From NCBI GenBank assembly GCA_036397555.1, contig DASWIS010000008.1, forward strand, positions 310,001 through 374,000: a stretch of 64,000 nucleotides of DNA. Reading direction: 5' to 3'. The notes beneath the pieces were generated by a model. That model did no database searches. It was not told the DNA's origin and was given only the letters and a program-made list of their open reading frames with translations. This document shows positions 21,262 through 32,724 of the stretch, one piece after another. The position numbers and the translations under genes were made by a program. This DNA is from Candidatus Zixiibacteriota bacterium. Lineage in GTDB: Bacteria; Zixibacteria; MSB-5A5; WJJR01. How positions within the stretch are numbered: position 1 is the stretch's first letter; each line of letters begins with the position of its first letter.

Positions 21262-22443
21262 ATGAGTTTTGCCGGAAATTTCAAGACCGTCTCGTTTGGC
21301 GATGCGTTGCAGTTGATTTCCACCGGCAAGAAAACCGGTGCGCTTCATCTGGAACGCGCCAAACGCAGCAAGAAGATTTTCTTTCGCGGGGGCAACATCA
21401 TCGCGGCGTTGTCCGATCCGCCGACCGATGAGGAACGGCTGGGTCAGTTGCTGCTGCGTCGCGGCGAGATCACGCCCGATGTGCTGGACCGCGCACTCAA
21501 ACGCCAACGTTCAACCAAACGCCGCCTCGGTCAGGTGTTGATCGATATGGATCTTCTCGCGCGCGACAAACTGATGAACGTGTTGCGCGCGCAAGTTGAA
21601 GAAGTCGTCTACGCGGTCTTCGGCTGGACTGACGGCGAGTTCCACTTCGTCGAGGCCGAAGAACCCGGCCCCTCGCAGATACTGGTGGATCTCAACACGC
21701 TAAACGTCATGATGGAGGGCGCCCGGCGCTTCGATGAATACGCCCAAATCGCACATGCGCTCCCAAGTGAGGATGCCGTCCTTCGCCACATACTCACGCC
21801 CCGAATCACGAACGGTGAAATTACGCTCACGTCGGAGGACCTGGAGGTTTTAGTCGCGATCGACGGCGAGCGTACGGTCGGAGAGATCGTCGGGCACTCG
21901 ATGCACGGCGAGTACGCGGCGTCCAAGGCGCTGCACAAGGTCCTGTCGGCGTCGCTGGCCGAACCGTGTCCGCAAAAATCCGAGACGGCGCGGCAACGGG
22001 CCGATGAGGGAGACGTGTTCAATCTGATCTATCAGGTCTATTCGCGGGCGTTGGAAGCGGCCCGTCAGATATTGGCCGATCAACTCGGGGCGGCGGGCGA
22101 CCGTCTGTTCATGCGCATTCCCGAGTCCTGCGAGGACGATGCCCGGGGAATGTCCCACATGCTGGTCGATCGTGGGGGCAACGGCGGCGTAGCCGCCTTT
22201 CGCGATCTGGCGGCACAGATTCCCGATGCCGTCCGCCTGCATCGAGTCCTGGATGTCTCGGGGCGCACACTCCGCCACGCGATTGACAGCGTACGCGACC
22301 GCCTGGGCTCGCATCGCGCCAATCAGCTCGTTCGCCACATCGAACAGGATCTCATGCTGGTGTTGGGGCAGAAGCGAGATATTGCCGATAATTATGACAT
22401 ACGACGGGAGCTGAACTTCGCCCTGCGGGGAGACGCATCGTGA
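21262..22443 (+). CDS. DUF4388 (PATAN) protein with tandem MshEN-type c-di-GMP motifs
   Basis: A 393-residue cytoplasmic protein. Residues ~1-50 and ~110-160 form a DUF4388/PATAN-like region (SFGDALQLISTGKKTGALHL, IFFRGGNIIAAL, VFGWTDGEFHF). Between them, residues 59-82 and 88-111 fit the 24-residue MshEN pattern RLG-x2-L-x3-G-x6-L-x3-L-x2-Q, separated by the canonical 5-residue spacer. Only the Gly of the second copy is replaced, by Asp. MshEN motifs bind c-di-GMP in pilus and secretion ATPases. The C-terminal half is helical and unrecognised. It heads the roadblock/MglA/pilus cluster. The next gene starts in a GTGA overlap. Confidence 0.78.
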   Translation: MSFAGNFKTVSFGDALQLISTGKKTGALHLERAKRSKKIFFRGGNIIAALSDPPTDEERLGQLLLRRGEITPDVLDRALKRQRSTKRRLGQVLIDMDLLARDKLMNVLRAQVEEVVYAVFGWTDGEFHFVEAEEPGPSQILVDLNTLNVMMEGARRFDEYAQIAHALPSEDAVLRHILTPRITNGEITLTSEDLEVLVAIDGERTVGEIVGHSMHGEYAASKALHKVLSASLAEPCPQKSETARQRADEGDVFNLIYQVYSRALEAARQILADQLGAAGDRLFMRIPESCEDDARGMSHMLVDRGGNGGVAAFRDLAAQIPDAVRLHRVLDVSGRTLRHAIDSVRDRLGSHRANQLVRHIEQDLMLVLGQKRDIADNYDIRRELNFALRGDAS

Positions 22444-22814
22444 CGAAACAGGCAACCAGAATGACGACAGCGTTTCTGGGACTCGCGATCCATGCCACGC
22501 CGGCCATCGCCGACGCGGGCCCTGGTGGCTCGCGCGCCAGTTCCTTTCTGATTGAGACTATCGTAATGCTGATCGTTGCCGCGCTGGTCTTCCTGAGCAT
22601 CAAAGTCTACTTGTCCATCCGTGGCGGGAAAGTGGGGGCTGGCTGGCTTTGGCTAATGGGCGGCTTCGGAGTTTGGTGCCTTGGGCAGGCCGCTTTCTTC
22701 TGCGGCGAGATTGGAATCATTCCGGCGATCGGTCTGTGGCTCGATGTCATCCGCATTGTCGCTTTAGCGCTGGTTTTAGTGGCGATGCTGCGGTTTCGCA
22801 AACTGTTCGCCTGA
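22440..22814 (+). CDS. Small membrane protein of unknown function
   Basis: A 124-residue protein starting at GTG 22440, overlapping the preceding stop codon (GTGA), which indicates translational coupling. A probable signal or first helix (residues ~8-25) is followed by three hydrophobic segments: FLIETIVMLIVAALVFLSI, the Trp-rich WLWLMGGFGVWCLGQAAFFC, and LDVIRIVALALVLVAML. It ends in a short basic tail. No family is recognised. The coupling suggests it works with the DUF4388 protein, perhaps as its membrane partner. The 230 bp after it hold no gene. Confidence 0.65.
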   Translation: MTKQATRMTTAFLGLAIHATPAIADAGPGGSRASSFLIETIVMLIVAALVFLSIKVYLSIRGGKVGAGWLWLMGGFGVWCLGQAAFFCGEIGIIPAIGLWLDVIRIVALALVLVAMLRFRKLFA

Positions 22815-23044
22815 ACACGCTTGATTGTCGTCGGATCAGCACCTGTAGGGCCAATCCAACACATTCGCTCTTGCGCAGTTATCCGCCTCACGCCTTCGGC
22901 CGGACGTAAGCCGATGCGCGTGCGCTGATTCCGCATTAAGTCCCCGGCACGGCACGTCGATATCAACAAAGAGACCCTGCCGCCGGATGCAGGGCGGTGC
23001 ACAACGGCGGCGGAAGCGCATGGTCCATCGCCACAGGCATGCAC

Positions 23045-23932
23045 ATGATCAGTGTCGCGGAATTAGACGAGCGTATCGACAAGTGTCTGGCCATCCTGGC
23101 GCAGAACCCACATTCGCGCGTGTTCGCCGCGCTGGCCGACGCCTACCGTAAGCGCGGCGATTTCGGTAAAGCATTTTCGATCTGCAAGGGCGGGCTCAAG
23201 CATCATCCCGATTATGCGCCCGCACACGTGGTCATGGCGAAGTTGTATCTGCATCAGCACATGTTCGGTGACGCGCTCGAATCGATTCAGCATGCGGTCC
23301 GCGCCGATAATCCGACGCGGGCCACCGATTTGCTGGAGGCCGAGATTCGGATCGCCATGGGTGACATCGACGGCGCCTCACCGATCGTTGCCAGATTGAA
23401 AGTCGGTGATCCCCACAACGATCAGGTTCGAGAGGTCGCGGCCAAGCTGCGAACGACGCAGACGCATGGGACACTTCCCAGCGCCGACACGGCGCGACAA
23501 TTCGTCACGAGCACCGTTCCCGAGGCCTCTGGTTCCGTCAGCGGCCAAGACCGTCCGTCGTTTGCCAGGACCGAGTCTCCGATTTCCTGGGATGAGTGGG
23601 AAGCGATGGTCGAGACGGTCCCGCAGGTGGCGACCGCATTTGCCTGGGATGCCGACGGTGATCCGTTGGCCGGGGTCTCCGACCAACCGACGGCCCGGTC
23701 TACGGGGACGATCATTGCAAATCTGTTCTCTGCAATTGATGAGTTGTTGCGCTTGAAGATCGATGCGTCGCTCGAGGAGATCCGTGTTGAACGATCCAAC
23801 GGCGAGCTGTGGTGCGGACGGGGCAATCGCGGGTTGATCGGATTCGCAGGACATCCGGGCGTCTCGTTCGGCGCGGCGCGGCAAGCTGCCGTTGCGAACG
23901 CGCGCCGCGTTTCGGGCGGATCGGCACACTAA
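23045..23932 (+). CDS. TPR protein with roadblock-like C-terminus
   Basis: A 295-residue protein. The N-terminal ~140 residues are tetratricopeptide repeats (NPHSRVFAALADAYRKRGDF, KGGLKHHPDYAPAHVVMAKL, QHMFGDALESIQHAVRADN). A low-complexity Ser/Thr linker follows. The last ~85 residues (TIIANLFSAIDELLRLKID...EEIRVERSNGELWCG) have the helix-strand-strand-helix outline of a roadblock/LC7 domain. I start at ATG 23045; ATG 23039 is an alternative. It is followed 9 bp later by a membrane protein with a similar C-terminus. It is a likely scaffold in the GTPase module; the roadblock assignment is by eye. Confidence 0.62.
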   Translation: MISVAELDERIDKCLAILAQNPHSRVFAALADAYRKRGDFGKAFSICKGGLKHHPDYAPAHVVMAKLYLHQHMFGDALESIQHAVRADNPTRATDLLEAEIRIAMGDIDGASPIVARLKVGDPHNDQVREVAAKLRTTQTHGTLPSADTARQFVTSTVPEASGSVSGQDRPSFARTESPISWDEWEAMVETVPQVATAFAWDADGDPLAGVSDQPTARSTGTIIANLFSAIDELLRLKIDASLEEIRVERSNGELWCGRGNRGLIGFAGHPGVSFGAARQAAVANARRVSGGSAH

Positions 23933-23941
23933 GAGGTGGAG

Positions 23942-24916
23942 ATGATGGCAGAGACTACAGCACAACCGCTGCCGCGCGGAGTTCTCATCCGCCAGACCTT
24001 CGTCGCCGTCGGCGCGATGATCGCGATCCCCTTGCTACTCTATCCGCGTCGTCTGGGTTTTCCAGACCTCGGCTTGAATCCCCTGTTCTCACTGCTGGAA
24101 TGGGGATTCTACTTCGGTGTCTTCACTTTGGCCGGGGCGCGATTGTCGACTTCGACGCGTTTCATGTCGGCGGGATTTACGGTTCTCGCGCGACTGGTGG
24201 TCGGCGCCGCGCTGGCTGTGCTGGTCGCTGTCGGGCATGACATGCCGTGGAAGACCGTCGCCGTTGAAATCCTCTGGTCGTATCCCGTTGCCGTCATCGT
24301 GCTCGTGTTGCTCATGCCGATCGTGTTGCGTCCCGTTTGGGAGCACTTGATGGGCGAAGGAGTCAATCGTGGAACTTCGCGTCGCGCCGTGGGCTTCGGC
24401 GGCAAGCGCGCACTTGTCCAGCGTCCGCTACGTCGCGCATACGGCAGCCGTGCAGCGGGCGGCGGCGAGAATCGGATCCTCGGTCCGGTGCATCTGGAAG
24501 CATCGCAGCCGGGGCAGGCGACGCTGGATGACGCCGTTTCCTATGTCGGCGGCTATCACGGTGTGCGACTGTGCTGGATTGTCGACGGCGAGGGCTTGCC
24601 CCTGGCCGTCTGGCAACGTCAGCATTATTCCGAAGACGCCGAGTACTGGGCTCCGATCAGCATCGAAGCGGCCGATTTTCACCGACGTCGATTGTCGGTA
24701 ACGGGACCATGCCAGCCCGAACGCATCGAAGTGCGCACCGATCTCGGTCGCGTCATCGTCGAATCGGTGGGCTCGTTCTGGCTGGGTGTTATGACCGATA
24801 ACGAAACGGATGATTTGATCGGCGTGCGGCTCGGGCGCGCACGCGATATGATCGCACACTATCTCCAGGAGGCCGGACGCCGTTATGTCGGCGCCGGGGA
24901 GGCGCACTATGTATGA
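23942..24916 (+). CDS. Membrane protein with C-terminal roadblock/LC7-like domain
   Basis: A 324-residue protein. Four transmembrane segments occupy residues ~15-125 (VAVGAMIAIPLLLY, WGFYFGVFTLAGARL, VVGAALAVLVAVG, VAVIVLVLLMPIVL). A basic linker follows. The last ~130 residues (TLDDAVSYVGGYHGVRLCWIV...DLIGVRLGRARDMIAHYL) resemble a roadblock domain. A GAGGTGGAG site precedes the paired ATGs at 23942/23945. The end overlaps the next gene, an MglB homologue, by 8 bp. The layout suggests a membrane receptor for the small GTPase or for MglB. Confidence 0.65.
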   Translation: MMAETTAQPLPRGVLIRQTFVAVGAMIAIPLLLYPRRLGFPDLGLNPLFSLLEWGFYFGVFTLAGARLSTSTRFMSAGFTVLARLVVGAALAVLVAVGHDMPWKTVAVEILWSYPVAVIVLVLLMPIVLRPVWEHLMGEGVNRGTSRRAVGFGGKRALVQRPLRRAYGSRAAGGGENRILGPVHLEASQPGQATLDDAVSYVGGYHGVRLCWIVDGEGLPLAVWQRQHYSEDAEYWAPISIEAADFHRRRLSVTGPCQPERIEVRTDLGRVIVESVGSFWLGVMTDNETDDLIGVRLGRARDMIAHYLQEAGRRYVGAGEAHYV

Positions 24917-25247
24917 AACACTGGCACAACTGAACAAGACCACCGGCGTCACCGGCAGCATGCTGGTGGGCACCGACGGTATCGTGATCGCATCCGATCT
25001 CGATCAAAAGACCAACGATGAAGTGCTCGGGGCACTGGCCTCCTCCATCGCGGCACAAGTGCGCAAGTCGACCGGGGAGATGGGGGGCGACGACTTCACG
25101 CAGGTGACCGTCGAGGCCGACGATCGGAAGATTTTCCTGACCGATGCCGGGATCGGCACACTGGTCGTCACGACCGAGCCGCGCGTGAACATTGGATTGG
25201 TGCGTCTGGAGATCCGCAACGCCATTGGCGCCCTGCAGAACACCTAA
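24909..25247 (+). CDS. Roadblock/LC7 protein, MglB-like (first copy)
   Basis: A 112-residue single roadblock/LC7 domain. The N-terminal helix (MYETLAQLNKTTGVTGSMLV) leads into the strand TDGIVIASDL, then a long helix (EVLGALASSIAAQVRKSTG), two strands and a last helix LEIRNAIGALQ. MglB proteins of this size activate GTP hydrolysis by MglA in Myxococcus and Thermus. The start overlaps the preceding gene by 8 bp, and mglA follows after 24 bp, so co-translation is likely. Confidence 0.85.
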   Translation: MYETLAQLNKTTGVTGSMLVGTDGIVIASDLDQKTNDEVLGALASSIAAQVRKSTGEMGGDDFTQVTVEADDRKIFLTDAGIGTLVVTTEPRVNIGLVRLEIRNAIGALQNT

Positions 25248-25271: not shown

Positions 25272-26225
25272 ATGGTTGCCATCAACTACGCGTTCCGCGA
25301 GATCAGCTGCAAGATCGTCTACTATGGCCCGGGGCTTTCGGGCAAAACGACGAACCTGCAGTATGTTCACGACCGACTGCCCAAGAAGTCGCGTGGCGAT
25401 TTGATCAGCCTGGCAACCGAGGCCGACCGCACGCTGTACTTCGACTTCCTCCCGCTGGAGCTGGGAGAGATCGGCGGCTTCGCCACAAAATTTCAGATGT
25501 ACACTGTCCCGGGACAGGTCTTCTACAACGCCACACGCAAGCTCGTGCTGCGCGGCGTCGACGGCATCGTTTTCGTGGCGGACTCCCAGAAAACGAAGAT
25601 GGACGACAATCTGGAGTCGTTGGCGGATATGGAGGACAATCTGAAGTCCTACAATCTCGACATCCACACGATGCCGATTGTCATCCAATACAACAAGCGC
25701 GACCTGCCCGACATCGCCACGATCGAAGAAATGGAAGCGGTGCTCAACAAGCACCAATGGCCATACATCGAGGCGGCGGCGGTCAAGGGACAGGGCGTCT
25801 TCGACACGATGAAGCGTGTCTCCAAGCTGGTCTTGGCCGACCTGAAGAAACGCACATCGGAAGGTGCCGTTACGCCGGCCGGCGGTTCCACGCCGACCCC
25901 CACGGCCCAAACTCCGGTCAAGACGTCGGCGTCCAGGGCCGAACTGGCTTCCATTGCCGCACGTCCGACTGCGGTGGTTTCCGCAGCGGGCGTTGCGACG
26001 AAACGTGTCGCCGCTGCATCGGAATCCGTTGCCGTGGCGGAGCGCGATACTCATGAAGACGAGATACCGGTCGCTCCCGTTGCGGGATCGACCGTTTCGA
26101 AATTGCGCGACCGTCCGGAACAGCCCAGTGGCGCCCCGGTCATGGCCGCGCAGAAGAGCACGCGCGTCCGGCGCCGCCGGCGTTCGCAGTTTGATCGGTT
26201 GTTCGGCTGGCTGTTCGGCCGTTGA
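25272..26225 (+). CDS. mglA: MglA-family small GTPase with long C-terminal extension
   Basis: Ras-like polarity GTPase. The P-loop G19-P-G-L-S-G-K-T26, the MglA-specific TVPGQVFYNATRKLVLRG in place of DxxG, FVADSQ, and the base-recognition QYNKRD are all present. The GTPase core ends near residue 195, the full length of Myxococcus MglA. A further ~120 residues follow: a Pro/Thr/Ala-rich linker, then a very basic Arg-rich tail ending RLFGWLFGR that could bind membrane. It sits between two MglB-like genes and just before the pilus motor genes, matching MglA's known role in polar control of type IV pili. Confidence 0.92.
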   Translation: MVAINYAFREISCKIVYYGPGLSGKTTNLQYVHDRLPKKSRGDLISLATEADRTLYFDFLPLELGEIGGFATKFQMYTVPGQVFYNATRKLVLRGVDGIVFVADSQKTKMDDNLESLADMEDNLKSYNLDIHTMPIVIQYNKRDLPDIATIEEMEAVLNKHQWPYIEAAAVKGQGVFDTMKRVSKLVLADLKKRTSEGAVTPAGGSTPTPTAQTPVKTSASRAELASIAARPTAVVSAAGVATKRVAAASESVAVAERDTHEDEIPVAPVAGSTVSKLRDRPEQPSGAPVMAAQKSTRVRRRRRSQFDRLFGWLFGR

Positions 26226-26236
26226 GGAGGTCACCG

Positions 26237-26716
26237 ATGGCATCGGGAGCCGTGATTCTGTACGAGGAACAGATTGATCAGATCAACGCTGCCCTCTTGC
26301 GGTTGATCAAGAAGGCGGAAGCCAAGTGCGCCCTCTTGGTCGACAAGGACGGCCACCTGATCACCCGGCAGGGGTTCACCCAATCGCTGGACACGACAGC
26401 CCTGGGCGCTCTGCTGGCAGGCAGCTTCGCCTCCACGCGGGAGATCGCGCGGTTGGTCGGCGAGCCGGAGTTTTCGGTTCTGTTCCATCAGGGACAAAAG
26501 GACCACATCCACATCGGATTGGTGGGCGAACGCAGCATCCTGGCGATCGTTTTCGATGATCGCACAACCATCGGGATGGTGCGCCTCTATGCGAAGGAAA
26601 CCGCGGATCGTCTCAGGGAATTGTTGACGCAACCGCCGAAGGGCTCCGCCCGCGCGCTGGACACCGACTTTTCGCGTTCGGCGGGTGAGACGATCGACAA
26701 CGTTTTCAAGGAGTAA
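26237..26716 (+). CDS. Roadblock/LC7 protein, MglB-like (second copy)
   Basis: A 159-residue roadblock protein starting at ATG 26237 with GAGGAGG at 26224-26230. The pattern matches MglB: KAEAKCALLVDKDGHLI, TTALGALLAGSFASTREIARL, EFSVLFHQGQKDHIHIGLV and MVRLYAKETADRLRELL. It has an N-terminal helix and a ~25-residue tail not found in the first copy. It lies 11 bp after mglA. Of the two small roadblock proteins it looks closer to classical MglB by length. How the two divide the GTPase-activating work is unknown. Confidence 0.85.
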   Translation: MASGAVILYEEQIDQINAALLRLIKKAEAKCALLVDKDGHLITRQGFTQSLDTTALGALLAGSFASTREIARLVGEPEFSVLFHQGQKDHIHIGLVGERSILAIVFDDRTTIGMVRLYAKETADRLRELLTQPPKGSARALDTDFSRSAGETIDNVFKE

Positions 26717-26760: not shown

Positions 26761-28458
26761 ATGTCGCAGGAACTCGGCCAGATGCTGGTTCAGGCGGGGA
26801 AACTCTCGCCCGATCAGCTCGAAGATGCGCTCAAGGCCGTTCGCGATAAGAATGAGAAATTCGCGGATGTCGTTGTCCGCATGGGTGCCGTTGTCGATGA
26901 AGATGAGCTCACGCATTTCATCGGACGGCAGCTTAACATCGGGGCGTTGCGCCTGTCCGATGTCGAGCTCGATACCGAAGTCGTCAAGCTGATCCCCTAC
27001 GACATCGCGCAGCGCTTTAACGTCATCGCGGTCTCGCGCGTCAACCGTACGCTCGTGGTCGCGATCTCCGATCCGCACAATATCTACGTCCTTGATGCCC
27101 TGAAATTCATCACCGGCTGCACGATCCAGCCGGTCATCTCGCCGGAACGCGCCATCGCGCGTTCGATCGAGCACTATTACGCCGACACCGCGGGTTTGGG
27201 CGACATCCTCAAGGGATTGGAAGAGGATGAAAGCGGACTGCAAGTCATCGAGGCCGATGAACAGGTCTCGGAGATGGACCTGCAGTCGCAGGTGCAGGAC
27301 AAGCCCCTCGTCAAGCTCGTCGACAAGATCATCCTCGAGGCGATCCAACGACACGCGTCGGACATTCACATCGAGTCGTACGAGAAACGCATTCGCGTCC
27401 GCTACCGCATCGACGGGATGCTGCGCGAGACCCAGCCGTTGCCATTCAAATACCGCGCGGCCATCGTCTCACGCGTGAAAATCATGGCCGATTTGGACAT
27501 CTCCGAACGGCGTTTGCCCCAGGACGGCCGCATCAAGGTCAAGCTGGGCAAGCGTGCGGTCGACCTGCGCGTCTCGGTGCTCCCCACGATCTTCGGCGAA
27601 AAGGTCGTCATGCGAATTCTCGATCCCGAGGCCCTGATGGTCGATTTGACCAAGCTGGGCTTCCCGGAGACGTCGCTGAAGAATTTCACCAAGGCAATCA
27701 ACATGCCCTATGGGATGATCCTGGTGACCGGCCCCACCGGTTCGGGTAAGACGACAACCCTCTATTCGGCGCTGAAGACGCTCAACCAGCCCGACGTCAA
27801 CATCATGACCGCCGAAGACCCGGTCGAGTTCAACTTCGAGGGGATCAATCAGGTTCTGGTCAAATCCGATATCGGAATGACGTTTGCCGCGGCATTGCGG
27901 TCGTTTCTCCGTCAAGACCCTGACATCGTGATGGTCGGAGAGATTCGCGACGGCGAGACCGCGGAAATCGCAATCCGCGCCGCGCTGACCGGACACTTGG
28001 TGTTCTCAACGCTCCACACCAATGACGCACCGTCGACGATCCATCGCCTGATCGACATGGGTGTGCCGAACTACCTGGTCGCGTCGGCCACCAAGCTGAT
28101 CATGGCGCAGCGAATGACGCGGCGCATCTGCGGCAACTGCAAAGAAGAGGTCCCGATCAATGCCGATCATCTGGACTTGCTGAACATCGCGAAGGAGGAC
28201 GCGGGCGGACTGAAGATGTTCGTCGGACACGGCTGCACCGATTGCAACAACACCGGGCTGTCCGGGCGAACGGGCATCTTCGAGGTCATGCCGGTTTCGC
28301 CCTTCATTGAGCGGATGATCCTGGACTCGGCGTCCGTTGACGAGATCCGGCAGCAGGCGATCACCGAGGGGATGCTGACGCTGCGCACGGCCGCCCTGGA
28401 GAAGATGGGCAAAGGCATGATCCCCTTAGAACAGGTGCTGGCCGAAACGAACGTTTAG
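26761..28458 (+). CDS. pilB: Type IV pilus extension ATPase PilB
   Basis: Hexameric ATPase that drives pilus assembly. The N-terminal ~150 residues form an MshEN-like/T2SSE_N region. The ATPase has Walker A GPTGSGKTTTL near residue 324, Asp box ITAEDPVEFNFEG-like, Walker B DPDIVMVGEIRDGETAEIA and His box TLHTNDAPS. A tetracysteine zinc site follows (CGNCKEE, CTDCNNTG). At 565 aa it is typical of GspE/PilB. The MshEN motif is degraded here (first copy lacks Arg and the final Gln; second lacks RLG). pilT and pilC follow, favouring pili over type II secretion. Confidence 0.95.
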   Translation: MSQELGQMLVQAGKLSPDQLEDALKAVRDKNEKFADVVVRMGAVVDEDELTHFIGRQLNIGALRLSDVELDTEVVKLIPYDIAQRFNVIAVSRVNRTLVVAISDPHNIYVLDALKFITGCTIQPVISPERAIARSIEHYYADTAGLGDILKGLEEDESGLQVIEADEQVSEMDLQSQVQDKPLVKLVDKIILEAIQRHASDIHIESYEKRIRVRYRIDGMLRETQPLPFKYRAAIVSRVKIMADLDISERRLPQDGRIKVKLGKRAVDLRVSVLPTIFGEKVVMRILDPEALMVDLTKLGFPETSLKNFTKAINMPYGMILVTGPTGSGKTTTLYSALKTLNQPDVNIMTAEDPVEFNFEGINQVLVKSDIGMTFAAALRSFLRQDPDIVMVGEIRDGETAEIAIRAALTGHLVFSTLHTNDAPSTIHRLIDMGVPNYLVASATKLIMAQRMTRRICGNCKEEVPINADHLDLLNIAKEDAGGLKMFVGHGCTDCNNTGLSGRTGIFEVMPVSPFIERMILDSASVDEIRQQAITEGMLTLRTAALEKMGKGMIPLEQVLAETNV

Positions 28459-28555: not shown

Positions 28556-29671
28556 ATGGTCACACTGCGCGAACTTCTGGAATTAATGAGCGAAAAGCGC
28601 GCGTCCGATCTGCACCTGACGGTGGGGTCGCCGCCGCAGTTGCGTGTCGACGGGCGTCTGCAACGTCTCGACATGGAAGTTCTTGCGGCGGAGCATACCA
28701 AAAAGCTCGCGTACAGCGTCATGAACGAGAAACAACGCAAGCGGTTCGAGGAGTCATGGGAACTGGACTTGTCCTTCGGTATTGAGAATCTCAGCCGGTT
28801 CCGCTGCAACATTTTTATCCAGCGCGGAAACGTCGCCATTGCCATTCGTCAAATCCCGTTCTCGATCCCGTCGTTTGAGGAGTTGGGATTGCCGCGCGTC
28901 GTCAGCGAATTGGCGAACTTGCCGCGAGGGCTCGTGCTGCTCACCGGACCGACCGGGTCGGGCAAGTCGACCTCGCTGGCGGCGTTGATCGACAAAATCA
29001 ACCGCGAGCGCTACAACCACATCATCACGGTCGAAGACCCGATCGAGTACCTGCACCGTCACCAGTGTTCGCTGGTAAACCAGCGCGAAATCGGGTCTGA
29101 CACAATCACGTTTGCCACCGCGTTGAAGTACGCGCTGCGGCAAGACCCCGATGTCGTGCTCATCGGCGAAATGCGCGACCTGGAGACGGTGGAATCGGCG
29201 CTGAACATCTCGGAGACCGGTCATCTGGCGTTTGCGACCCTGCACACCAATTCATGCGCTGAGACGATCAACCGCATCGTCGACGTTTTCCCGGTCAATC
29301 AGCAGGAACAGGTGCGCGTGACGTTGTCGTTCGTGCTGCAGGCCATCGTGTGCCAGCAGTTGATCCCGCGCGTGGGCGGCGGCCGGGCGCTGGCCACGGA
29401 GATTCTGATCTGCACACCGGCGATACGTGCGACGGTCCGCGACGACAAGATCCATCAGATATACAGTCTCATCCAGGCGGGTCAGAAGTATGGGATGCGC
29501 ACGATGAACCAGTCGCTGGTGGAGTTGTATTTGACACATAAGATCACGTACGGTGATGCCTTGTCACGTTCCTCGAATCCGCAGGAGATGGACGAGATGA
29601 TCGCGCGCGCCAAGGGAGCCGGCAGCACACGGGTCCGGGCCGGCATGGGAGGCGAACATGCCGCTGTTTGA
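28556..29671 (+). CDS. pilT: Type IV pilus retraction ATPase PilT
   Basis: ATPase that depolymerises pili and powers twitching. A PAS-like N-terminal domain (RASDLHLTVGSPPQLRVDG) precedes the RecA-like core, with GPTGSGKS near residues 131-138, TVEDPIEY, DPDVVLIGEMRDLETVE and TLHTNSCAETINRIVD. The C-terminal CTPAIRATVRDDKIHQI corresponds to the AIRNLIRE motif that is needed for retraction. It is 371 aa, with a ~25-residue Arg/Gly tail. It overlaps pilC by 14 bp. The 97-bp gap after pilB is GC-rich and may hold a weak hairpin. Confidence 0.96.
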   Translation: MVTLRELLELMSEKRASDLHLTVGSPPQLRVDGRLQRLDMEVLAAEHTKKLAYSVMNEKQRKRFEESWELDLSFGIENLSRFRCNIFIQRGNVAIAIRQIPFSIPSFEELGLPRVVSELANLPRGLVLLTGPTGSGKSTSLAALIDKINRERYNHIITVEDPIEYLHRHQCSLVNQREIGSDTITFATALKYALRQDPDVVLIGEMRDLETVESALNISETGHLAFATLHTNSCAETINRIVDVFPVNQQEQVRVTLSFVLQAIVCQQLIPRVGGGRALATEILICTPAIRATVRDDKIHQIYSLIQAGQKYGMRTMNQSLVELYLTHKITYGDALSRSSNPQEMDEMIARAKGAGSTRVRAGMGGEHAAV

Positions 29672-30857
29672 ATACAAGGGCAAGACACTTGCCGGCACAC
29701 AGGTCGTCGGTGAGATGAGGGCCAAAAGCCGCAACGATCTGGATCGTGCCCTGCGGCGCAAGAAGATCATCATCTCTTCGGTGCAGAAGAAGCCGTCGCA
29801 GATCAAGCTGCGTATCGGCACCGGGATTAAGAAGATCCATATCTCACGATTTACGCGCCAGTTCGCGACGATGATCGGCGCCGGTCTGCCGATGGTCCAG
29901 TGTCTGGATATTCTTTCCAAGCAGATGGAAGCAGCGGAGATGCGCCGCGTGGTCGGCGAGGTCAAGGAGTCGGTCTCTTCGGGCTCGACGCTGGCCGAGG
30001 CGCTCGGGCGTCACAAGAAGGTGTTTGATGATCTCTACGTGAACATGGTCGAGGCGGGCGAGATCGGCGGCGCGCTCGATACGATCCTCGTGCGCCTGGC
30101 GAACTACCGCGAAAAGGCCGATGCCCTGATCCGCAAGGTTCGCGGTGCCATGGTGTACCCGTCTGTCATCGTGGTCGTCGCCATCGGCGTGACCTTCGCG
30201 ATGCTCACATGGATCGTGCCGGTCTTCGCGAAGATGTTCTCCGGTTTGGGGGCGGAACTGCCGGGACCCACACAAGCCGTCCTGCGAATTTCGCATTTCC
30301 TGCGCGACAATCTCCTGATGATGTTCGCGGGGGCCATCGGATTCGCGATCGGTTTCCGGTATTTCGTGCGAACCGAAAAGGGTCGATTGTACTTCGACCG
30401 CTTTATGCTGCGCGCGCCATTGATCGGGACTCTGATTCGCAAGAGCGCCGTGTCCCGCTTTACACGCACGCTGGGGACATTGCTGTCCTCGGGTGTCTCG
30501 ATTCTCGAAGCGCTGGAAATCACGGCCAAGACGGCCGGCAACCGCGTCATTCACGACGCCATCCGCCGCTCGGTGCTGGCGATCGCCGAGGGCGACACCA
30601 TCACTGGTCCCCTGAAGGACACCGGCGTCTTTCCGCCCATGGTCACGCAGATGATCTCCGTCGGTGAGAAGACCGGCGGTCTGGACGACATGTTGTCCAA
30701 GATCGCCGATTTTTACGACGAGGAAGTCGATGCGGCTGTCAGCGCGCTCACGTCGATCATCGAGCCGGTGATCATCGTGTTCATGGGCGTCATCATCGGC
30801 GGCATTCTAATTGCCATGTATCTGCCGATGTTCGACATCATCGGCAAGATCCAGTAA
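29658..30857 (+). CDS. pilC: Type IV pilus inner-membrane platform protein PilC
   Basis: A 399-residue platform protein on which PilB and PilT act. It has two tandem T2SSF domains (FTRQFATMIGAGLPMVQCLDIL and FTRTLGTLLSSGVSILEALEI), each with the GExxG-type turn (VEAGEIGGALDTIL, SVGEKTGGLDDML). Three transmembrane segments lie near residues 170, 220 and 375. The N-terminal FEYKGKTLAGTQVVGEM is the usual start. GGAGG in the end of pilT precedes ATG 29658. No pilin, PilMNOP or secretin gene is in the window, so the rest of the machine is elsewhere. Confidence 0.96.
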   Translation: MPLFEYKGKTLAGTQVVGEMRAKSRNDLDRALRRKKIIISSVQKKPSQIKLRIGTGIKKIHISRFTRQFATMIGAGLPMVQCLDILSKQMEAAEMRRVVGEVKESVSSGSTLAEALGRHKKVFDDLYVNMVEAGEIGGALDTILVRLANYREKADALIRKVRGAMVYPSVIVVVAIGVTFAMLTWIVPVFAKMFSGLGAELPGPTQAVLRISHFLRDNLLMMFAGAIGFAIGFRYFVRTEKGRLYFDRFMLRAPLIGTLIRKSAVSRFTRTLGTLLSSGVSILEALEITAKTAGNRVIHDAIRRSVLAIAEGDTITGPLKDTGVFPPMVTQMISVGEKTGGLDDMLSKIADFYDEEVDAAVSALTSIIEPVIIVFMGVIIGGILIAMYLPMFDIIGKIQ

Positions 30858-30897
30858 CGTGCCGGGGATCACACCCCCCCGCCAGGGGCCGACTCCC

Positions 30898-32724
30898 GTG
30901 TTTGTCTACACACGGCGTTCCGCGATCGGTGATGTCCGCCCCGCCTGGGTCGTCGGCACACGGCTGGTCACCATCGCCGTCACGGTCGCGATGGCGATGC
31001 CGTGGCTGTCATCCGATCCGATCGTCCGCACCGTCATCGCAGTCTATCTCTGTGTTTCAGTTCCGGCCATCCTCCTGACATTGACGTCCCAACGCTGGGG
31101 ACTTCACATACTGTCGCCGGTGTCGATGATCGCGCATCTGCTCTCGGAGCTGACCGCCATCTCCGTCATTGTGCACCAGTCGGGGGGTGTCGCCTCGCCG
31201 TCCGTGTCGCTGTACCTGATGACAATCATCTCCGCGGCGCTCAGCTACCGTCTGGCGGGCACGCTCGTTGTTGCAACCGTCGCTGCCGCCGCGTTCGTTA
31301 CAACCATTTGGACCGGTGCGGGATATCACGCGTCGTCGCTGTGGTCGGTCGGGGGTCTGGGTGCACTCAAGCAGCTTCCCGACGAGGCATTTTTCAGCGT
31401 CTTCCTGCGGCTCTGCATCTTCTTCCTCTGCGCATTCGCCGGGGGATATCTGGCGGAACGCCTGTATTACAAGGACGCCGCGCTGGTGCATACCTCCGAA
31501 GCGCTGCGCATCGCCAAATGGGAAACCGGAGACATCCTCAAGCACTTGCGCTCAGGCGTGCTGACCGTCGACATTGGCGGACGTGTCGTTTACTTCAATC
31601 GCGCGGCTGAGGAGATTCTCGGCGTCTCCGAGAAGAAGGTCCGCGGCCGTCCGATCCAGGAAGTCCTCGGCGAGCAATTTCCCGAGTTCGCCGAACGCCT
31701 CGAAAGCGTCGTCCATTCACAGCGAATGGACATTCGCACGGAACTGAAGATTCGCCGTCCCGACGGCCACGAAATGCCGGTTGGGTTATCGACCTCAGTT
31801 CTTGGCGGCTTCGCCGGCCAGGCGCGCGGCGTCGTTGCGGTATTTCAGGACCTGACCGAAGCCAAAGAGATCGAGGAGCGCCTGCGCCGTCAAGATCGTC
31901 TCGCCGCGATCGGCGAATTGTCCGCCGGGATCGCACACGAAATTCGCAATCCATTGGCGGCGATCTCCGGGTCGGTGGAAGTGCTGCGCGACGCACTCGA
32001 GCTGGAAGGGGAAAACAAGCAACTGCTGGATTTGATCGTGCGCGAATCGGGCCGTCTCAACAAGATCGTCCAGGACTTTCTGTTGTATGCGCGGTTGCGT
32101 CCGGTCGTTGCCGGACGAGTCGAGGTATCGACCCTGTTAGACGAAGTCGTGCGGATCGCGCGCGGCCACTTCGATCGTCAGGCGACCGGCGCGCCGAGGA
32201 TCGCCATCGATCTGCCGCGTCAGTCGATCCATCTCGCCGCCGATTCCGACCATCTCAAACAGATTCTGATCAATCTGGTCTTCAACGGAATCGAGTCTTG
32301 TGCCGCCAAGCCGAGCGCCGACAACTCCGTGACGATTCGCGTGCGCGTGCTCGGCAAGGACGAGCTGACCTTCATCCCGGATTTGGATTCACCTGACCAG
32401 CCCGGCGCAACGGCCCACGAATGGGTCTCGATTGCGGTGATTGATACCGGCACCGGGATTCCAACTGACATTATCGACCGCCTGTATGAGCCGTTTGTCT
32501 CGTCGAAGACGACAGGGACCGGCCTCGGGCTGGCGATCGTCAAACGACTGGTCGATCACAATGGCGGGTACATCACGTCCGACAGCGTCCCCGGTCAGGG
32601 CGCGCGTTTTGTTCTCTGTCTGAGACGGTGTCCGGTTGATGAGCGTCCCGGCCGTGAGGTTCTCCATCACGGCGCCACAGCCGACCGGACGCCTCAGTCT
32701 GATCCGGTCACATCCCGCGACTGA
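30898..32724 (+). CDS. pilS: PilS-type sensor histidine kinase
   Basis: A 608-residue membrane kinase. Six hydrophobic segments fill residues ~20-200. A PAS domain (DILKHLRSGVLTVDIGGRVVYFNRAAEEIL), HisKA with the phosphoacceptor in SAGIAHEIRNPLAAISGS, and a HATPase domain follow (ILINLVFNGIES, DTGTGIPTD, TGTGLGLAIV). This layout and its place after pilC fit PilS, which controls pilin transcription with PilR. No response regulator is adjacent. The frame is open from just after pilC; I prefer GTG 30898, preceded by AGGGG, over GTG 30859. Confidence 0.85.
   Translation: MFVYTRRSAIGDVRPAWVVGTRLVTIAVTVAMAMPWLSSDPIVRTVIAVYLCVSVPAILLTLTSQRWGLHILSPVSMIAHLLSELTAISVIVHQSGGVASPSVSLYLMTIISAALSYRLAGTLVVATVAAAAFVTTIWTGAGYHASSLWSVGGLGALKQLPDEAFFSVFLRLCIFFLCAFAGGYLAERLYYKDAALVHTSEALRIAKWETGDILKHLRSGVLTVDIGGRVVYFNRAAEEILGVSEKKVRGRPIQEVLGEQFPEFAERLESVVHSQRMDIRTELKIRRPDGHEMPVGLSTSVLGGFAGQARGVVAVFQDLTEAKEIEERLRRQDRLAAIGELSAGIAHEIRNPLAAISGSVEVLRDALELEGENKQLLDLIVRESGRLNKIVQDFLLYARLRPVVAGRVEVSTLLDEVVRIARGHFDRQATGAPRIAIDLPRQSIHLAADSDHLKQILINLVFNGIESCAAKPSADNSVTIRVRVLGKDELTFIPDLDSPDQPGATAHEWVSIAVIDTGTGIPTDIIDRLYEPFVSSKTTGTGLGLAIVKRLVDHNGGYITSDSVPGQGARFVLCLRRCPVDERPGREVLHHGATADRTPQSDPVTSRD

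Follow-up and report, generated by a model that had tools for sequence, protein, structure and literature searches.

The locus analysed here raises the question of why a PATAN (PatA N-terminal; DUF4388) protein encoded next to genes of the Mgl polarity switch and the type IV pilus motor contains a tandem motif resembling that of the c-di-GMP-binding MshEN domain, and what the motif would do there. The protein, P0001 (393 aa), is encoded on the forward strand at positions 21262–22443 of a 64,000-nucleotide stretch of DNA from a Candidatus Zixiibacteriota bacterium, referred to below as the window. Our best reading, with a probability of about 0.52, is that P0001 would act as a c-di-GMP effector on the pilus motor and the Mgl module, in the manner of FimX; it draws on sequence, a predicted structure and analogy with known systems.

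The assignment of the host protein to the PATAN family, proposed by the sequence-only reading, is confirmed by a Pfam match to PF14332 in two overlapping stretches (E 3.2e-33; 114.8 bits against a curated cut-off of 25), and orthologues of P0001 occur class-wide. The published 24-residue c-di-GMP motif, RLGxx(LVI)(LVI)xxG(LVI)(LVI)xxxxLxxxLxxQ, has 11 constrained positions (Wang 2016, PMC5013675). In P0001, translation and motif scoring place motif I at aa 59–82 (21436–21507; R59LGQLLLRRGEITPDVLDRALKRQ82) and motif II at aa 88–111 (21523–21594; R88LGQVLIDMDLLARDKLMNVLRAQ111), each copy matching 10 of the 11 positions. The claim that residues 59–82 agree at every fixed position is true of a shortened pattern but not of the full motif, in which Glu69 occupies a hydrophobic slot, Gly68 being kept; residues 88–111 do deviate only at the turn Gly, which is replaced by Asp97, as had been stated. 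The five-residue spacer RSTKR (aa 83–87, 21508–21522) is likewise as first described, so that two 24-residue motifs and their spacer make a 53-residue tandem at 21436–21594. All 12 ligand residues (Arg, Leu, Gly, Leu, Leu and Gln in both copies) are found in P0001, and about 4e-13 such tandems would be expected by chance per proteome.

The NCBIfam model NF053729 (c-di-GMP_motif; ‘cyclic di-GMP-binding domain, MshE-related’), which has 53 positions, aligns over its whole length (1–53 of 53) with residues 59–111 (55.6–59 bits, cut-off 38, E 3.4e-15) and matches 68 of the 78 orthologues at E <= 1e-9. Searches of the PDB with the single sequence of P0001 recovered the homologous bundle of Thermus PilF GSPII-A/B/C (E 7e-13) and Vibrio cholerae MshE (5htl; phmmer E 1.7e-6 over residues 58–113), and a profile of 52 orthologous inserts matched PilF at E 1e-22 and MshE at E 3e-11. 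A Pfam search with PF05157, the MshEN model that includes the C-terminal subdomain, gave no match to P0001.

The comparison of residues 50–120 with MshEN that had been suggested as a check came out in favour of the domain. AlphaFold2 predicts both helix pairs (56–66 and 72–85 in the region of motif I, 89–95 and 101–120 in that of motif II), which form a four-helix bundle with a mean pLDDT of 88–89. Over 55 columns, the model of the insert fits c-di-GMP-bound MshE (5htl_B) with an rmsd of 0.6 A (probability 1.00, TM 0.72); its Foldseek E-value of 0.03 is weak, as expected for such a short chain, but the matches of the sequence profiles are decisive. The insert-only model was used because a full-length Foldseek search ranked by E-value placed mostly unrelated helical proteins on top. 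P0001 thus shares with MshEN_N of MshE the 53-residue tandem, the five-residue spacer, the four-helix bundle and the Arg and Gln of each motif, but it lacks the MshEN_C subdomain and the ATPase, its bundle is nested in a PATAN domain and it carries the Glu69 and Asp97 deviations.

A further difference from MshE is the main structural doubt. In the model, helix 1 begins earlier, at residue 56, with a predicted N-cap box T55-D-E-E58 (21424–21435), and this T55-x-x-E58 cap, three residues before Arg59, is a possible obstacle to ligand entry. In Thermus PilF, GSPII-B and GSPII-C bind c-di-GMP and GSPII-A does not (PMC11731258, PMC12002112); in GSPII-A, an additional N-capped turn of helix 1 acts jointly with subdomain contacts to block binding despite a perfect motif (PMC12002112). 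Helix 1 is also extended in apo GSPII-B, without an N-cap, and unfolds upon binding. PilF differs from P0001 in its fusion to an ATPase, and GSPII-A has His33 and a degenerate motif II; P0001 keeps Gln82, Arg88 and Gln111, although the upstream N-cap is common to both.

The position of the bundle is revealed by short-form PATAN proteins, which align to profile positions 1–50 and then 112–158 with few residues between. Since they lack exactly the stretch of the bundle, it represents an insertion, and this alignment shows the MshEN_N module to be nested inside the PATAN core. The N-terminal half of the core comprises aa 1–50 (21262–21411), with strands 3–6, 26–32, 35–42 and 45–52 and a helix at 12–21 in the model, and the C-terminal half aa 112–160 (21595–21741), delimited by the model and the short forms. 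The remaining C-terminal region, aa 161–393 (21742–22440), is modelled as a winged-helix-like part followed by helices; Pfam gave no family match for aa 151–393. PF14332 covers the bundle twice with its positions 48–83 (21262–21738, two overlapping pieces), which suggests that the family model holds part of one MshEN repeat. The PF14332 (DUF4388) family could be divided into PATAN core and insert.

The motif had been described as sitting in a PATAN protein instead of a secretion ATPase. The host is indeed a PATAN protein, but such an arrangement is less rare than this wording implied: NF053729 matches 17 of 26 long-form PATANs, from Zixibacterial and other lineages, at E <= 1e-5, and many fusions that contain MshEN bundles have been described (PMC5013675). 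The alpha-helical insertion of PixG, PixE and LsiR (PF14332) enters at the same point of the core, and these PATANs also have type IV pilus motor and Mgl genes as neighbours or partners (PMC4316618, PMC12288463). They differ from P0001, which has no receiver domain, in that the nine presumed cyanobacterial insertions lack the RLG and the Gln and reach an MshEN profile probability of only 9%. Profile comparison, which produced no MshEN alignment, did not support the idea that the founding cyanobacterial PATAN insertions are MshEN bundles.

Relatives of P0001 were found in 174 of the 195 genomes searched, the named matches being almost all from Candidatus Zixiibacteriota. We surveyed the ligand residues in 81 sequences, 8 from genomes that belong to the window's order and 73 from other relatives. 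Arg59 is present in all eight of the former and in none of the latter, where position 59 is Leu (59 sequences), Tyr, Phe or Met. Gln82 is kept in 15 of the 81, being mostly His elsewhere, and Gln111 in 79. The strict Arg/Gln/Arg/Gln set occurs in four of the eight sequences of the order and in 0 of 73 others; the extended consensus, with Arg, Lys or Leu first, is satisfied by six and seven, respectively. Paralogous PATANs have Gln82 in 11, Arg88 in 13 and Gln111 in all of 14 cases. The window's order forms a clade (support 0.996) when the insert columns are left out of the tree, and parsimony fits both retention and regain of the canonical set in it.

Two simple arguments from these data were rejected: that conservation of Arg59 implies binding by the whole family, as this residue is confined to the window's order, and that its loss elsewhere proves loss of binding, as Leu or Lys there binds tightly (PMC11731258). 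Indeed, PilF GSPII-B binds c-di-GMP at 6 nM despite Lys and Leu replacing the two Arg, and the authors of that work widened the start of the consensus to (R/K/L)LG (PMC11731258); Leu59 in the class is consequently no argument against binding. By analogy, His82 is a doubtful ligand residue; PilF GSPII-A has His at the last position and is non-binding, but carries other changes too (PMC12002112). c-di-GMP-bound structures of GSPII-B with Q190E and Q218E (Glu at the last position) are among the fold matches of the insert.

The strongest competitor of our reading, possible but clearly less probable, is that the nested bundle is mainly a protein–protein interface, for example for PilB, MglA or a roadblock protein, and descends from a ligand-binding MshEN_N; most of the family would then have lost c-di-GMP binding or kept it as a vestige, and the canonical residues seen in the order would be leftover or neutral. 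It is consistent with the drift of Arg59, Gln82 and Arg88 on a Leu/Gly scaffold that is near invariant class-wide, and with the conservation of the gene cluster even where the ligand set is not conserved; MshEN-like docking bundles also exist, the Xanthomonas citri PilB(N)–PilZ complex being among the fold matches. However, Leu at the first position lies within the extended consensus and goes with tighter binding in GSPII-B (PMC11731258), and the structures with Glu indicate that drift need not equal loss. Moreover, the ligand-contact positions vary unusually little in the order, where 9 of 12 are invariant as compared with 5 of the 41 remaining positions of the insert (Fisher P 7e-5), a constancy that is partly due to scaffold residues conserved class-wide. 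Judging from its motif and model, we consider P0001 itself likely to bind c-di-GMP in vitro.

The sequence-only reading had placed P0001 in an Mgl/pilus cluster, and the neighbouring genes bear this out. On the same strand follow a small membrane-protein-like ORF (22440–22814; weakly conserved, with a 4-bp overlap with the PATAN gene), a TPR and roadblock-like protein (22997–23932; Pfam, conserved in the cluster), a membrane protein with weak roadblock similarity (23936–24916; Pfam E 0.015, cluster comparison), a roadblock/MglB-like protein (24885–25247; Robl_LC7 E 2e-16, and matches to solved roadblock proteins), an MglA GTPase with a long C-terminal extension (25272–26225) and a second roadblock protein (26222–26716; Pfam E 6e-12). 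Next come the PilB pilus extension ATPase (26761–28458; TIGR02538 above cut-off, NF053729 39.4–43 bits), the PilT retraction ATPase (28556–29671; TIGR01420 491 bits, above cut-off), a PilC-like inner membrane platform protein (29658–30857; NF052606 E 2e-152, under its cut-off) and a PilS-like histidine kinase (30811–32724; HisKA, HATPase_c, PAS and a weak 6TM_PilS). The identity of MglA is certain from its sequence match to a solved MglA (5ymx, E 1e-75 over aa 3–194). This protein has 317 aa, of which the solved MglA covers just aa 3–194, and its Ala/Pro/Thr-rich tail closes with a basic and possibly amphipathic sequence, RRRRRSQFDRLFGWLFGR, a possible membrane anchor.

The genes of the cluster in the window lie on one strand and overlap or are closely spaced, an arrangement consistent with an operon. 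The block is kept in all 19 Zixiibacteriota neighbourhoods read, all of P0001's class, largely in the order murJ, comEC, PATAN, TPR-roadblock, roadblock-like, roadblock (MglB-like), mglA, roadblock, pilB, pilT, pilC and pilS. PATAN proteins adjoin Mgl and pilus genes in many phyla, and Makarova 2006, cited in PMC4316618, had already pointed out PATAN genes close to mglA/mglB.

This neighbourhood also bears on the idea, improbable in our view, that P0001 binds c-di-GMP but serves another function, for example DNA uptake by way of the neighbouring ComEC, or the control of genes by its winged-helix-like part. In most relatives comEC lies directly upstream of the PATAN gene, and a winged-helix-like segment does follow the PATAN domain in the model; nevertheless, mgl, roadblock and pil genes dominate the conserved block, the published PATAN partners are PilB and PilC (PMC12288463), and this would partly be the same pathway, as DNA uptake is also a function of type IV pili. 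As for the possibility that an amphipathic helical insertion mimics the MshEN motif by chance, RLG with Leu at heptad-like intervals is a simple pattern for a helix and fumarase-fold helices are also among the fold matches, but the profile matches to MshE and PilF, the agreement of the orthologues with NF053729 and the expectation of 4e-13 refute it, and we rejected it as scarcely credible.

The genome encodes the means to produce the ligand. Two GGDEF proteins (L238, L239), with intact GGDEF/GGEEF and an upstream RxxD, represent diguanylate cyclases, and GGDEF is present in 58 of 58 class genomes. On the receptor side, we found one PilZ protein and four proteins matching NF053729, namely a GspE/PilB-like ATPase (81 bits), P0001, the PilB of the cluster and an MshEN-HD-PATAN protein (43 bits). 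The GspE/PilB-like ATPase, a second one in this genome (L004 / G000:C26:22902-23057), has the strongest motif, with RLG in both copies and the last Gln replaced by Arg. The MshEN-HD-PATAN protein (713 aa; L240:2039-4180, G000:C31) combines an N-terminal MshEN with regions that resemble receiver and HD domains and with a short-form PATAN that has no insert, and its gene adjoins that of a PilT-like ATPase.

The PilB of the cluster keeps an MshEN_N bundle in which the Arg of both motifs is absent: across the class members seen, the first Arg is replaced by Glu or Asp in every sequence and the second by Phe, Lys or His, Arg occurring once. PF05157 matches the window's PilB only at aa 59–144, after the bundle. 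The claim that P0001 is the c-di-GMP input of the cluster thus stands in part. The predicted fold and the diguanylate cyclases speak for it; PilB's own bundle, the presence of four modules and one PilZ in the genome, and the drift of ligand residues where the cluster stays speak against, and we see the chances that P0001 has this role as even.

Returning to P0001 as an effector of the pilus motor and the Mgl module, we propose that one extended c-di-GMP molecule would lie between the helix pairs. As seen in MshE, the guanines would be stacked against Arg59 and Arg88, and Gln82 and Gln111 would hold the ribose-phosphate; we consider this mode of binding likely. Binding could then rigidify or reorient the PATAN core and alter its contact with PilB and/or the MglA-roadblock proteins, a step that we regard as evenly balanced. 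In Synechocystis, PilB1 and PilC are binding partners of PATAN regulators (review PMC12288463), which makes PilB the first candidate partner. The pilus motor, its own MshEN bundle degenerate in this lineage, would gain c-di-GMP control in trans, as with FimX. The proposed logic, a c-di-GMP effector acting in trans on PilB, is that of FimX/PilZ control, although the receptor domains there (EAL, PilZ) are unrelated and the contact of P0001 with PilB is putative. By way of this putative binder, c-di-GMP probably steers pilus-driven movement.

Neither the domain and its many fusions nor the proximity of PATAN to Mgl genes is new, and NF053729 would already flag the module. Among the open-access papers searched, we found none that joins the PATAN insertion with MshEN, nor one that explains the function of the inserted helices. 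Tentatively, the alpha-helical insertion could be a c-di-GMP-binding MshEN_N in a large part of non-cyanobacterial PATANs, making PATAN an adaptor that is gated by a second messenger and links c-di-GMP with both the Mgl polarity switch and the pilus motor, the sensing site having moved in this lineage from PilB to the adaptor. The residue changes across the class offer a natural mutagenesis series that could show which of them abolish binding. If the insert binds c-di-GMP, it predicts receptors that PF05157 misses, because this model did not match the bundle here, and it would connect the second messenger directly with the polarity GTPase and the pilus motor.
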